This document shows positions 53,506-58,488 of a stretch of 64,000 nucleotides of DNA, in pieces; the stretch's first letter is position 1; every line of letters starts with the position of its first letter. The position numbers and the translations under genes were made by a program. Source of the DNA: Bacteroidota bacterium (GTDB lineage: Bacteria > Bacteroidota > Bacteroidia > Chitinophagales > Chitinophagaceae); NCBI GenBank assembly GCA_030706635.1, contig JAUZOD010000009.1, positions 1 to 64,000 of the forward strand, written 5' to 3'. The notes under the pieces were generated by a model. The model worked only from the letters and a program-made list of their open reading frames with translations, was not told the DNA's origin and did not search any database.

Positions 53506-53609
53506 GTTATAGTTAAGTTGACGGTTGACGGTTGACGGACTTCATGTGGAAATTCGCAACTGGGATCGGTCAACTGTCAATTGTCAACTGTCAACTGTCA
53601 ACTGTCAAC
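53506..53609. repeat. Inverted repeat of 7-bp tandem units, copy 2
   Basis: Left arm at 53506-53538 is built from GTTGACG-type heptamers (at least three in a row) and the right arm 53568-53609 from CTGTCAA-type heptamers (five in a row). The arms match at six of every seven positions. It lies between the convergent LEA2 and valS genes, and the right arm covers the valS stop codon. See copies 1 and 3. Confidence 0.8.
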
Positions 53610-56268
53610 CCTTCAACACCAGTTCAATCGCTGCAATCTTCTCCTCCGTGTCTGATTTTTTCTTTTTCTCGAGATCAATTACTTCCGGTTTGGCATGTTG
53701 CATGAATTTTTCGTTGCTTAGCTTTTTATTCAGGGACTCAAGGAACCCGCGGTAGTGAATGAGTTCTTTTTCCAATTCCTGCTTCTGATATGTCTTGTCT
53801 GGCTGCAATCCGGTTTCGAAACCGATTTGAGAACCCCTGAATGGAATCCAGTGGATGCCGTTGTCGTTTTCCCCGCTCTTTGTGCCAAAACCGACAGCTT
53901 CTGCGTTGAGCTGTTTCCGGATGATGGCATAGACGCTGTTATTGCTGAAGATTTCTTCCGCTAACACAACCCGGGTTATCGGTTCGCTGTTTTTCATCTG
54001 CTGTTGCTGCCTGAACTCCCGGCCAACGGTAAGGAACAACCGGAGATCATCGCCAGCCCGCAAGACCTGCGGGTCGGGTTCTCTGACCGGCCCAAATTGT
54101 TTAATGCAGAGATCGTCTCCGGCAGCCCGTTCTTTCAATAAATGGTAGATCTCTTCTGTAACAAAGGGCATAAAGGGATGCAGCCATTGAAGGAGTTCTT
54201 CAAAAAAAGAAACGGTTTTCTGGTATACCTCTGGCAGCATAGCCTGTTCATATCCCGGCTTCACCCATTCGAGGAACCAGCTGCAGAAATCGTCCCATAT
54301 CAGGGAATAAAGATTTTTTAAAGCTTCACTGATTTTAAATTCTGCAATTAGTTTCTGAATATCATTTTTGGCCTGCTCCAGGCGGTTTTCAAACCATTGA
54401 ACGGCAAAATGGCCTGTTGAGTCTATTGCTGCTGAGCCGGGTTTTTCCGGGCCTGTTTCAGAAACCGCCTGCCTGGCCGCCCACATATTCACCAGTTTGA
54501 GGGCGTTCCACAGTTTATTGTTGAAATTCCTTCCCTGCTCGGGTCCTGCTTCATCGAAGAGCAGGTCATTACCTGCCGGGGAGGAAATCATGATGCCGAA
54601 CCGGACGGCATCGGCGCCATATTTTTCAATGAGTTTTAAAAGGTCGGGAGAATTGCCCAGACTCTTGCTCATTTTCCTTCCCTGTTTATCTCTCACCATG
54701 CCCGTGAAATAAACATCAGAAAACGGCTTTTCATTTTTGAATTCCATGCCAGCCATGATCATGCGGGCCACCCAGAAAAATATTATATCCTGGCCCGTGA
54801 CCAACACGGCGCCGGGGTAATAATATTTGAAATCTGCGTTGTCTGGGTCTGTTATGCCGTGGAAAACTTCCATAGGCCATAACCACGAAGAGAACCAGGT
54901 ATCCAGCACGTCTTCATCCTGCGTTAATTTTTCGCCCGCTTTCAGGGGCCCGAATTCCTGTTGATAAGTGGCTATGGCGGCCTGTTCATTTTCGGCAACA
55001 ACGAAATTCTTTTTGCCGTCATACCAGGTCGGGATCCTTTGTCCCCACCAGAGTTGCCTTGAGATACACCAGTCCTTTACATTTTCCAGCCAGTATTTGT
55101 AGGTCGCCAAAAATTTATCTCCCGGATGAATACGGATGTTCCCGGAAATCACCTGTTCCAGCGCAGGAGCCGCGAGCGGTTTCATTTTTACAAACCACTG
55201 GGTGGAAATGCGGGGCTCCACTACGGCATGAGATCTCTGGGAATATCCCAGTCGGGTGGCATAAGTTTCTTCTTTCACAAGCAATCCTTCTTCCCGGAGC
55301 ATTTCAACTATTCTTTTTCTGGCCTCAAACCGGTCCATGCCCACCAGTATTTCGGCAGCCGGGGATAAGCTACCGTCTTCGTTCAGGGTTTCTATTACTG
55401 GTAAACCGTGCTTCAATCCCAGATTATAGTCGTTGATATCGTGTGCAGGCGTAACCTTTAATGCGCCGGTTCCGAAGCTGATGTCAATATAATCATCAAA
55501 GATCACGGGTACGGAGCGGTTTACCAGCGGCACGATCACCTGTTTCCCTTTCAGGTGCCGGTATCGTGGATCTTCCGGGTTCACGCATACTCCGGTATCT
55601 CCCATGATGGTTTCGGGACGCTGGGTGGCAATGGTTATAAAGTCGCTGGTGCCGGCAATGGGATACTTAACGTAATAAAGTATCCCCTCCACATCCCGGT
55701 ATTCCACTTCTTCGTCGCTGAGTGCCGTTCGCGCAGATGGATCCCAATGGATCATGCGGGCGCCGCGATAGATCAGGTTTTTCCGGTACAGATCCACAAA
55801 CACGCGTATGACCGCCCGGTAATAGTGGTCATCCATGGTAAAGCTGGTGCGGTTCCAGTCAACACTGCATCCAAGTTTGGCGATCTGGTCGTATATGATG
55901 CTGCCATAAGTGTCTTTCCACTCAAAGGCGTATTTCAGAAAGGCTTCCCGGGAAAGGCTGTTCTTATCAATGCCTTTTTCTTTGAGCATGGCCACCACGC
56001 GGGCTTCGGTGGCAATGGACGCATGGTCGCTTCCCGGAACCCAACAGGCATTCAGTCCGCTCATCCTTGCCCGGCGTACCAGGATGTCCTGAACCGTTTC
56101 GTTGAGGGTGTGACCCATGTGCAGCACGCCGGTCACATTGGGCGGCGGAATCACCACCGTGTATGGTTTCCGGTGATCCGGAAAACTGTTAAAATAATGA
56201 TTCGCATTCCAGTGTGCCGACCATTTATTTTCTACGGAGGCGGGATCATAGTGTTTATTCAATTCCAT
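53605..56268 (-). CDS. valS: Valyl-tRNA synthetase
   Basis: An 887-residue class I synthetase: PPPNVTGVLHMGHTLNE with the HIGH motif at 50-53, the editing domain TIATQRPETIMGDTGVCVNPED, the KMSKS loop GRKMSKSLGNSPD, and the C-terminal coiled coil (KELIHYRGFLESLNKKLSNEKFMQHAKPEVI). Start ATG 56268 is chosen because a TAnnTTTG box (56293-56300) lies where a longer reading from 56295 would begin, and MELNKHYDPA fits the family. The stop is inside the second repeat hairpin. Charges tRNA(Val) and edits threonyl-tRNA(Val). Confidence 0.96.
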   Translation of the reverse strand: MELNKHYDPASVENKWSAHWNANHYFNSFPDHRKPYTVVIPPPNVTGVLHMGHTLNETVQDILVRRARMSGLNACWVPGSDHASIATEARVVAMLKEKGIDKNSLSREAFLKYAFEWKDTYGSIIYDQIAKLGCSVDWNRTSFTMDDHYYRAVIRVFVDLYRKNLIYRGARMIHWDPSARTALSDEEVEYRDVEGILYYVKYPIAGTSDFITIATQRPETIMGDTGVCVNPEDPRYRHLKGKQVIVPLVNRSVPVIFDDYIDISFGTGALKVTPAHDINDYNLGLKHGLPVIETLNEDGSLSPAAEILVGMDRFEARKRIVEMLREEGLLVKEETYATRLGYSQRSHAVVEPRISTQWFVKMKPLAAPALEQVISGNIRIHPGDKFLATYKYWLENVKDWCISRQLWWGQRIPTWYDGKKNFVVAENEQAAIATYQQEFGPLKAGEKLTQDEDVLDTWFSSWLWPMEVFHGITDPDNADFKYYYPGAVLVTGQDIIFFWVARMIMAGMEFKNEKPFSDVYFTGMVRDKQGRKMSKSLGNSPDLLKLIEKYGADAVRFGIMISSPAGNDLLFDEAGPEQGRNFNNKLWNALKLVNMWAARQAVSETGPEKPGSAAIDSTGHFAVQWFENRLEQAKNDIQKLIAEFKISEALKNLYSLIWDDFCSWFLEWVKPGYEQAMLPEVYQKTVSFFEELLQWLHPFMPFVTEEIYHLLKERAAGDDLCIKQFGPVREPDPQVLRAGDDLRLFLTVGREFRQQQQMKNSEPITRVVLAEEIFSNNSVYAIIRKQLNAEAVGFGTKSGENDNGIHWIPFRGSQIGFETGLQPDKTYQKQELEKELIHYRGFLESLNKKLSNEKFMQHAKPEVIDLEKKKKSDTEEKIAAIELVLKG

Positions 56269-56292
56269 CCGGGTGCATCTTTTAAAGGAATG

Positions 56293-56300
56293 CAAAGTTA
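56293..56300 (-). promoter_or_regulatory. -7 box of the valS promoter
   Basis: TAACTTTG on the minus strand fits TAnnTTTG and lies 25 bp before the ATG at 56268. It supports this start. No standard -33 TTG was identified. Confidence 0.45.
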
Positions 56301-56342: not shown

Positions 56343-56370
56343 AAAAGTTTCCTGTTAAAAGGAAACTTTT
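56343..56370 (-). terminator. Terminator of mini-gene 1
   Basis: AAAAGTTTCC (56343-56352) and GGAAACTTTT (56361-56370) form a 10-bp perfect stem with an 8-nt loop; on the minus strand it is followed by T residues. It ends transcription of the 37-codon gene at 56454-56567, some 84 bp downstream of its stop, before valS. Confidence 0.7.
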
Positions 56371-56453: not shown

Positions 56454-56567
56454 TTATGCAAACCAGTACAAATAAGAAAGCAGCATAACCAGGGCGAGAA
56501 AACCAAAGGCAAATAAAGCTGTCTTTGCATTTTCTCCCAAATGAAATGAATGTGTTGTCCTCTTCAT
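56454..56567 (-). CDS. 37-residue membrane mini-protein, copy 1 (FHxGE type)
   Basis: ATG at 56567 opens a 37-codon frame ending in TAA. The product has a short N-terminal part MKRTTHSFHLGENA and a single hydrophobic helix (TALFAFGFLALVMLLSYLYWFA). It aligns with the second mini-gene (56842-56955): both are exactly 37 residues, both start MK, both carry F-H-[LV]-G-E at positions 7-12 and then one membrane helix. Each is followed by a separate hairpin terminator, so each is its own transcription unit. No family is known to me. A lone frame this short would be unreliable; the paralogue plus terminators make it credible. Confidence 0.6.
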   Translation of the reverse strand: MKRTTHSFHLGENAKTALFAFGFLALVMLLSYLYWFA

Positions 56568-56794
56568 AAATGAAAAATTTAGAATGAAACCATGTTAATT
56601 AAAAACATTTGTTTCAAAGGGACTCAAAATCAACTAGGGTAGGTTTCTCTTACGATCTGGGGGGGATGCCTTAAAAATAATGACCATGGCAGGCGAACCA
56701 TGATCTCCAAACAAATATAAACTGATTTTCTGAGCAGTGCTAGTGTTTAGCCATAAAATTTGCAATATTTTCCCCAAATTTCCCCAAAAAGGAA

Positions 56795-56817
56795 AACTCC
56801 GGCTTGAGGCCGGAGTT
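56795..56817 (-). terminator. Terminator of mini-gene 2
   Basis: AACTCCGGC (56795-56803) and GCCGGAGTT (56809-56817) form a 9-bp perfect stem with a 5-nt loop. Reading the minus strand, TTTCCTTTTT follows. It lies 25 bp after the stop of the mini-gene at 56842-56955. Confidence 0.75.
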
Positions 56818-56841
56818 GACGTACCAGGTGTTTGCCCAGGA

Positions 56842-56955
56842 TCAGGTTAAGGTAAAGACGTAGGCAAATAACATGATGGAGCAGAAATACAGGACCGCGA
56901 TGATCGCGGCCAATGTCGTTTCCTCCCCAACATGAAAGGCTTGCATGTTTTTCAT
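56842..56955 (-). CDS. 37-residue membrane mini-protein, copy 2 (FHxGE type)
   Basis: ATG at 56955 opens a 37-codon frame ending in TGA. Product: MKNMQAFHVGEETT, then a single hydrophobic helix (LAAIIAVLYFCSIMLFAYVF). It is the partner of copy 1, with the same length, MK start and FHxGE motif but otherwise diverged, so both have been kept as protein rather than being a recent DNA duplication. It lies 160 bp before the divergent DnaQ/GIY-YIG gene. Possible roles are as regulatory subunit of a membrane complex; not known. Confidence 0.6.
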   Translation of the reverse strand: MKNMQAFHVGEETTLAAIIAVLYFCSIMLFAYVFTLT

Positions 56956-57114
56956 GGAGATGAATTTAAAGGTGAAATACTAAGCATACGGACGGATTTC
57001 AGGGCGCTTTCAACGGGTACGAATGGAATAATATCAAAAAAACCGTAAATGAAATGGAAACGGAAGCGTGATTATCCTAACTTTATTAGCAAATAAGGCT
57101 CAGGACACCCGGTT

Positions 57115-58488
57115 ATGTATGCAATAGTAGATATCGAAACAACGGGTAGTTATGCTGCTAATAACGGCATCACTGAATTGGCTATTGTGCTTTACGATGG
57201 AAATAAGATCTTGGACCGTTTTGAAAGCCTGGTCAATCCTCAAATGCCTATCCCGCGCTACATTCAGGTACTCACGGGCATTCTGCCGGAGATGCTGGAA
57301 TCTGCTCCGCTGTTCAGCGAAATGGCTGACCGGGTTTATACCTTATTAAAAGATGCTGTTTTCGTGGCACACAATGTGAATTTTGACTATTCTTTCATCA
57401 AATTCCATCTGGAGTCCTGCGGTTATTCGTTGAACAGTAAAAAGCTTTGCACTGTCCGGCTGAGCCGTAAACTGTTCCCGGGGCTTGCCGGTTACAGTCT
57501 CGGCAAGTTATGCCGCGAGTTGAGTATTCCCCTCGAGAACCGCCACCGGGCCGGAGGGGATGCCGACGCCACGGTAAGGCTTTTTGAAAAAATTCTGCTC
57601 AGGGACTCGCAGGGTCATGTGCAGCAAATGCTGAATACGAGAAGCCGGGAACAGTACCTGCCTCCCAATTTACCTTCGGATCAGATTGCGGGAATCCCGT
57701 ACACATCGGGGGTTTATTATTTCCACGATCAAAAAGGGAAAGTGATCTATGTGGGGAAGGCCAGGAATCTCCGTAGCCGCGTCTGCAGTCATTTTTCGAA
57801 TAATCACACCGGCCTGCGCAAACAGGAATTTCTGCGGAATATTTTTTCTGTTTCCTGGCAGGAATGTGGTACGGAATTGATGGCCTTTCTGTTTGAATGC
57901 ATTGAAATCAAACGGCTCTGGCCTAAATACAATAGCAGCCTGAAACGGTTTGAACAGGCCTATGGCCTATATACCTATGAGGATCACAACGGTTTTCTGC
58001 GGCTTATTATGGAAAAGAAAAAAAAGCATCTGCAGAGTTATTATAGTTTTAACAGCGTTTTTGAAGGGAGGCAAATAATCAGCCGGCTGGTTCGCCAATG
58101 CGGACTTTGTCCAAAACTTTGCTTCATACAAAAAGGGGATGATGCCTGTGAGGGGATCCGGGAGCATTATTGTTCAGGAGCCTGCAGGGGAGAGGAAACA
58201 GCATCAGCATATAATGACCGTGTTCGGGAGGCTTTGGCTTCCCTGCAGCAGGTTCTTCCGTCTTTTTTCGTGAAAGATAAAGGTCGACACGCCGCCGAAG
58301 AGAGCTATATACTTATAGAAAACGGACGTTTCTATGGAATGGGTTACCTGGACAAAGAATTGCAAATAGGAAATCTGGACTTGCTGAAAGAACATCTCAC
58401 CGTTTATCCGGAAAATGATTATATGCGGGGACTGGTGTATCAGTATGCAGAAAAATGGCCTTCAAAGAAATTGACAATGGACAATTGA
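57115..58488 (+). CDS. DnaQ-like exonuclease fused to a GIY-YIG/UvrC-type nuclease
   Basis: Residues 1-165 form a DEDDh exonuclease with Asp6 and Glu8 (DIETTG), Asp91 (NVNFDYSF), His144 and Asp149. Residues 195-275 form a GIY-YIG endonuclease (SGVYYFHDQKGKVIYVGKARNLRSR) like that of UvrC and Cho. A cysteine-rich segment follows, including CGLCPKLC and HYCSGACRG. Total length 457. Such fusions (as in the mycobacterial DnaQ-UvrC-like protein) are suspected to act in nucleotide excision repair or DNA processing. The last codons and stop overlap the third heptamer-repeat hairpin, giving the tail LTMDN. Confidence 0.88.
   Translation: MYAIVDIETTGSYAANNGITELAIVLYDGNKILDRFESLVNPQMPIPRYIQVLTGILPEMLESAPLFSEMADRVYTLLKDAVFVAHNVNFDYSFIKFHLESCGYSLNSKKLCTVRLSRKLFPGLAGYSLGKLCRELSIPLENRHRAGGDADATVRLFEKILLRDSQGHVQQMLNTRSREQYLPPNLPSDQIAGIPYTSGVYYFHDQKGKVIYVGKARNLRSRVCSHFSNNHTGLRKQEFLRNIFSVSWQECGTELMAFLFECIEIKRLWPKYNSSLKRFEQAYGLYTYEDHNGFLRLIMEKKKKHLQSYYSFNSVFEGRQIISRLVRQCGLCPKLCFIQKGDDACEGIREHYCSGACRGEETASAYNDRVREALASLQQVLPSFFVKDKGRHAAEESYILIENGRFYGMGYLDKELQIGNLDLLKEHLTVYPENDYMRGLVYQYAEKWPSKKLTMDN

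Follow-up and report, generated by a model that had tools for sequence, protein, structure and literature searches.

Two genes of a lineage-restricted family of predicted single-helix mini-proteins in the valS–dnaQ slot of Chitinophagaceae

The analysis of a 64,000-nucleotide stretch of Bacteroidota DNA (referred to here as the window) points to two short minus-strand genes, A and B, that belong to a small, lineage-restricted family of predicted single-pass membrane proteins and that may, with about even chances, act as accessory or regulatory subunits of an unlinked membrane complex. A and B are almost certainly real coding genes, and they are under purifying selection at the protein level.

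Coding evidence for A and B

The two genes and their neighbours are as follows.

53605..56268, minus strand: valyl-tRNA synthetase-like gene (valS), syntenic neighbour, start read as ATG 56268
56454..56567, minus strand: gene A, 37-aa single-helix mini-protein, HLGE before the helix, C-terminal SYLYWFA
56842..56955, minus strand: gene B, 37-aa mini-protein with a single helix, probably an old paralogue of A
57115..58488, plus strand: dnaQ (so called here), divergent syntenic neighbour, RNase_T exonuclease plus GIY-YIG protein

Both frames lie exactly where the original prediction had placed them and run intact for 37 codons from an ATG start, giving the products MKRTTHSFHLGENAKTALFAFGFLALVMLLSYLYWFA (A) and MKNMQAFHVGEETTLAAIIAVLYFCSIMLFAYVFTLT (B). 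The intergenic gap of 819 bp stated at the same time holds only if valS, whose product we take from its sequence to be a valyl-tRNA synthetase, is begun at TTG 56295, the start of its longest frame (53605–56295), which falls within a promoter-like site; since that site, TAACTTTG, occupies 56293–56300, ATG 56268 is the likelier start, and the gap then becomes about 846 bp. A plus-strand frame of 38 codons (window 56932–57048), containing VFHGDE, overlaps the start of B.

For A, pN/pS was 0.159 in frame (11 disjoint pairs, 23 rows of 114 nt), against 1.23 and 1.82 when the same DNA was shifted by one or two bases; for B, the in-frame value was 0.286 (8 disjoint pairs, 16 rows), against 0.80 and 1.84 in the shifted frames, rows of other lengths being excluded from both sets. 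These contrasts agree with the selection on the protein that had been proposed, and the suggested comparison across homologues likewise gave dN/dS below 1, with a median of 0.14 for A (highest 0.34; 50 pairs with dS < 1.5) and 0.28 for B (highest 0.67; 49 pairs with dS < 1.5).

Six-frame searches of 78 relatives, among them 32 genomes of the same genus, recovered the homologous frames that had been anticipated: A was matched strongly (E at most 7.5e-8), and in the same slot, in 28 of the 32 congeners, and B had a same-slot match in 27, the weakest B match (E 0.019) being admitted on position, and the frames in these genomes were intact rather than missing or broken by indels. The valS gene, too, went unmatched (at E 1e-20) in the four congeners without A (G003, G005, G015 and G016; 58–94% complete), whose assemblies probably lack the site, and in one further congener (G028) A was present and no B was recognized in the slot. 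Of the 28 A loci in congeners, 27 showed both valS and dnaQ by tblastn, and in the remaining one the contig ends inside the locus.

Kinship and range of the family

The members of the family are about 34–43 residues long. The common length of 37 residues is correct for the pair in the window, and is found in 24 of 30 A rows and 16 of 27 B rows (start codons in both sets were chosen by us), so that it is not universal. Similarly, the FHxGE motif is present in both window proteins but fails as a family signature, being exact in 9/30 A and 3/27 B rows; the pattern H-[LIM]-[GSN]-[ED] occurs in 29 of the 30 A rows. The A helix keeps GF..LV..LSYLYWFA, and B keeps LYFCAI..FAY.FT.

B accompanies A in the genus of the window and in five other genera, where it was picked by eye from the open frames and was missing in one of the two genomes of one genus. 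In a tree of 95 rows, the B rows of all six genera group as a single clade (support 100/96, on only 37 columns and with the bootstrap not settled). The paralogy of A and B, as originally proposed, is likely but not proved. An end-to-end alignment by hhalign (probability 87%, E 4e-6) favours it, whereas the excess over shuffled sequences is partial: the profile of A alone placed 17 of 35 B sequences above the 95th percentile of 2100 shuffles and one above all of them, a profile of A plus distant A-like rows placed 24 of 35 and seven, respectively, and the B profile placed 14 of 41 A sequences above the 95th percentile and two above all shuffles.

A third set, the C group, lies away from the valS–dnaQ slot (12 loci in 11 congeners examined). 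Neither valS nor dnaQ was present at any C locus examined, and the nearest large frames there, inspected by eye, include no gene shared with the A/B slot; four loci (L071, L073, L074 and L076) carry genes on the two sides that we take from their sequences to be GH92-like and dus-like, and two others (L068 and L069) carry the presumed GH92-like gene only. That C copies occur elsewhere in the genome suggests that genomic place is not function. A 10-bp inverted repeat, GCGGATTTTT / AAAAATCCGC, lies just upstream of the C gene in L071, L074 and L076 (three of 11 C loci scanned), with its second arm directly before the start codon.

Across 244 genomes of Chitinophagaceae, the A profile matched 44 at E up to 0.05, namely five in the genus of the window, 14 strong matches in six other genera (E at most 1.6e-13) and 25 weak ones; strong matches therefore amount to 19 of the 244 genomes, five of them in the window's genus. 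All 17 out-of-genus loci formed by the 14 strong matches and three weak ones (L125, L126 and L130) sit between valS and dnaQ, and neither gene was seen at the eight other weak loci examined (L127–L129 and L131–L135). When the DNA upstream of dnaQ was taken from 80 genomes, valS lay within the stretch in 18, of which seven held a member by profile (five already in the profile seed; L213, which shows a seed locus again; and the unseeded L215), and among the 62 stretches without valS a single member was found (L147; 2.3 kb stretch). Of 40 more loci around valS starts, members occurred in L237–L240, with L243 doubtful (8.9 bits), and in none of the 31 (L244–L274) where valS was not seen beside dnaQ; seven valS–dnaQ gaps of about 500–750 nt held no recognizable member. 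As far as these genomes show, the family is patchy and tied to the valS–dnaQ junction, since members are almost absent where the two genes are apart.

No convincing member was found outside Chitinophagaceae among 198 genomes of the order and 296 of the phylum. The order search matched 19 of 198 genomes at E up to 0.01, including nine from outside the family, none of which was convincing (L218, L219, L224, L225, L227 and L228 were inspected, the others judged by frame length and score), and the phylum search matched three of 296 at E up to 0.001, these being the window's own genome, one of the same family (G092) and a weak match in a 140-aa frame that we took as chance. We also took as chance a 286-aa match, presumably TatC, and long-frame B matches at six loci, comprising five proteins of 136–144 aa with a DPFHIG stretch (which we take to be DoxX-like) and one 1780-aa frame. 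A 36-aa peptide near the far end of dnaQ in G040 (L220, 1498–1608) resembles divergent members and is possibly one of them.

Neither window protein had a match in Pfam or NCBIfam, even at E up to 10. Among 35 members scanned, scores were scattered, with best E values of 0.028 (Pfam, where 16 families were listed at E up to 1), 0.0017 (NCBIfam) and 0.019 (PHROGs, 13 families with one or two members each), PADLOC gave none at E up to 0.5, and neither phage nor defence membership is indicated by these scans; the best sequence match among solved structures had E 0.27. No paper describing the family was recognized by title or abstract start among the literature matches listed. The earlier view that no described family covers these proteins is in keeping with this lack of a convincing match.

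Transcription signals and the leader of A

The following candidate signals, all on the minus strand, surround the two genes.

56293..56300, minus strand: promoter-like TAACTTTG for valS, TAnnTTTG, downstream of A's terminator
56343..56370, minus strand: intrinsic terminator after A, 11-pair stem
56585..56591, minus strand: leader block GGTTTCA, conserved, shortly before the start of A
56613..56621, minus strand: leader block CCCTTTGAA, conserved
56642..56655, minus strand: leader block TCGTAAGAGAAACC, conserved
56712..56719, minus strand: promoter-like TATATTTG for A, TAnnTTTG
56795..56817, minus strand: intrinsic terminator after B, 9-pair stem

Each gene has its own hairpin terminator, as was first noticed. 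Five terminator-like sites fall in the 1-kb stretch, where shuffles average 0.9, and against 200 shuffles the two stems gave z of −3.5 (0/200 as good) and −2.3 (5/200). A terminator-like hairpin stands behind A in 34 of 46 loci (47 tried, one not parsed) and behind B in 20 of 36, with a background of 9 in 460 Markov draws from the DNA behind A.

The motif TAnnTTTG, which we take to be the Bacteroidota −7 element, occurs 135–195 nt ahead of A in 25 of 29 leaders, compared with an expectation of 3.8, and a further one lies between A and valS, no more than 400 nt past the stop of A, in 26 of 29 loci, compared with 5.1; it was found within 110 nt of B in 0 of 27 loci (one cut by a contig end), and a general sigma-70 scan of the stretch returned no promoter. 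On these sites A and valS look separately transcribed.

The leader of A (window 56568–56711) carries three sequence blocks conserved through the genus. Allowing at most one mismatch, GAGAAACC, CCCTTTGAA and GGTTTCACC were found in 26, 21 and 24 of 30 leaders, against shuffle expectations of 1.9, 2.6 and 0.7, respectively. The blocks GAGAAACC and GGTTTCACC were not enriched before B (1 and 0 of 27), before C (0 and 0 of 12) or before A-like genes outside the genus (1 and 1 of 24). A looser, CC.TGAA-like pattern, drawn up after the leaders had been inspected, precedes A in 21 of 29 cases, where 3.4 would be expected. It stands before 16 of 23 A-like genes in other genera (expectation 1.7) and before B in 8 of 35 cases (expectation 3.6), one of these 8 (L035) being a contig-end artefact. 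The consensus fold of the A leaders contained no pairs, and single-sequence folding was unremarkable in five of six leaders, with z of −2.4 in the sixth. Of the 23 rows that contain both blocks, 21 complete an outer GAAACC/GGTTTC pairing, which is however invariant; an inner helix showed no clear excess, 39 of 500 permutations being as good (6 of 29 rows, lacking a block, were dropped). The Rfam scan of the A leader gave nothing near a gathering score. The long conserved leader suggests that expression of A is regulated.

Proposed role and alternatives

AlphaFold2 confidently predicts a single helix in A (residues 7–36; mean pLDDT 83.1, pTM 0.45). We suggest that the lysine-bearing N-terminus would stay in the cytoplasm and that the helix would cross the inner membrane, its aromatic end pointing outward. 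On the model of CydX and AcrZ, A would be a structural or regulatory accessory subunit, its helix docking onto a larger membrane complex encoded elsewhere, while B and C, as copies that have diverged, would serve that partner or ones related to it. Among the most conserved columns are those of the helix and its aromatic end, where a partner could bind. Several observations count against the accessory-subunit reading, namely the lack of one-face conservation around the A and B helices (equalled or exceeded in 1991 and 2063 of 5000 shuffles), the lack of any neighbour common to the A/B and C sites, a range that is confined to one family and patchy within it, and the lack of a promoter-like site for B.

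AcrZ is proteobacterial and is encoded apart from its complex. It is described (in the part of PMC7267776 drawn on here) as a small protein of the membrane that binds to a large complex there and modulates it, and CydX, in the corresponding parts of PMC4325964 and PMC6005532, as hard to identify by sequence, with 37 aa in E. coli and a single hydrophobic helix, in which respects it is like A and B. In contrast to CydX, the immediate neighbours of A and B are valS-like and exonuclease genes and not oxidase genes, and no AcrZ model was among the Pfam and NCBIfam families listed.

An unlikely alternative, which nevertheless deserves weight, is that the proteins act on the bilayer or the membrane potential and not on one protein partner, either as stress-induced modulators or as type I toxin-like peptides. 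Small size, a single helix, tandem and dispersed copies and separate terminators would all fit, as would the regulated expression suggested by the long leader of A, and a precedent exists in YohP, a 27-aa E. coli membrane protein whose production is described (PMC12719787, in part) as lowering the membrane potential and raising cardiolipin. In description, YohP is like A and B as a very small membrane protein. Against this alternative, the single fixed slot across genera and the strong constraint on the residues of A are unlike what is usual for toxins with fast turnover, and the PADLOC and PHROGs scans offer no more than scattered, weak PHROGs scores.

It is rather improbable, to our judgement, that A, B and C are paralogous helices that are, jointly or interchangeably, part of an undescribed Chitinophagaceae-specific membrane complex, with the A leader (roughly 120–180 nt; GAGAAACC / CCCTTTGAA / GGTTTCACC) as a novel cis-acting regulator of A's dose, either an RNA or an operator.

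We consider it very unlikely that the family belongs, as a detached relative, with one of the known small membrane subunits (cytochrome oxidase subunit IV, SecE, FixQ, CydX or TorE/NapE), although size and topology are similar and weak scores exist for one of 35 members each against SecE (E 0.0017, NCBIfam PRK09400; not among the 10 members rescanned) and FixQ/CcoQ (E 0.42, PF05545), the latter too weak for membership. The genome's SecE is encoded elsewhere (E 7.1e-15), and A and B are absent from the four PF00584 matches at E up to 10, so that SecE was rejected. Cytochrome oxidase subunit IV, a lead suggested by an FMHL..E motif, was rejected likewise: there was no profile match, and 377 and 202 of 500 shuffles aligned as well with the COX4_pro protein of the genome. 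For the 35 members, NapE, CydX and COX4 do not figure among the 16 Pfam families, nor does a CydX/YbgT model figure in the Pfam and NCBIfam listings (E up to 1). TorE and NapE are described, in the part of PMC6134056 drawn on, as small membrane proteins whose single helix contains conserved residues, TorE homologues adjoining genes for NapC/NirT-family cytochromes; the slot of A and B, in contrast, adjoins the valS-like and exonuclease genes.

A leader peptide that controls valS by attenuation was rejected as most improbable: A does immediately precede valS on its strand, and a terminator separates the two, but the apparently separate transcription (TAnnTTTG between A's stop and valS) makes this unlikely, the A peptides hold only one to three Val and Val-Val in 0 of 30, one member (L147) stands beside dnaQ with no valS in 2.3 kb, and the C copies lie elsewhere. 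Chance open frames above a non-coding element can scarcely account for the data either; such short frames abound (the 1.8 kb stretch is overlapped by 31 ORFs of 20 aa or more, large genes included), the leader DNA of A is conserved as well, and the contrast for B is the weaker one, with pairwise dN/dS up to 0.67 and one shifted frame at 0.80, but the in-frame constraint on both genes and their intact frames in 28 and 27 congeners stand against it.

Conserved small membrane proteins are of an already known kind, but this family is well delimited and testable. The analysis adds a coding family of membrane proteins of about 34–43 residues that is named in none of Pfam, NCBIfam, PHROGs and PADLOC. 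Owing to its fixed synteny it is readily located in genomes that carry it, an alignment is ready, and Puia dinghuensis CGMCC 1.15448 is a named relative with a genome record. A and B are deletion targets separate from the neighbouring genes, and the conserved leader of A offers a handle on regulation.
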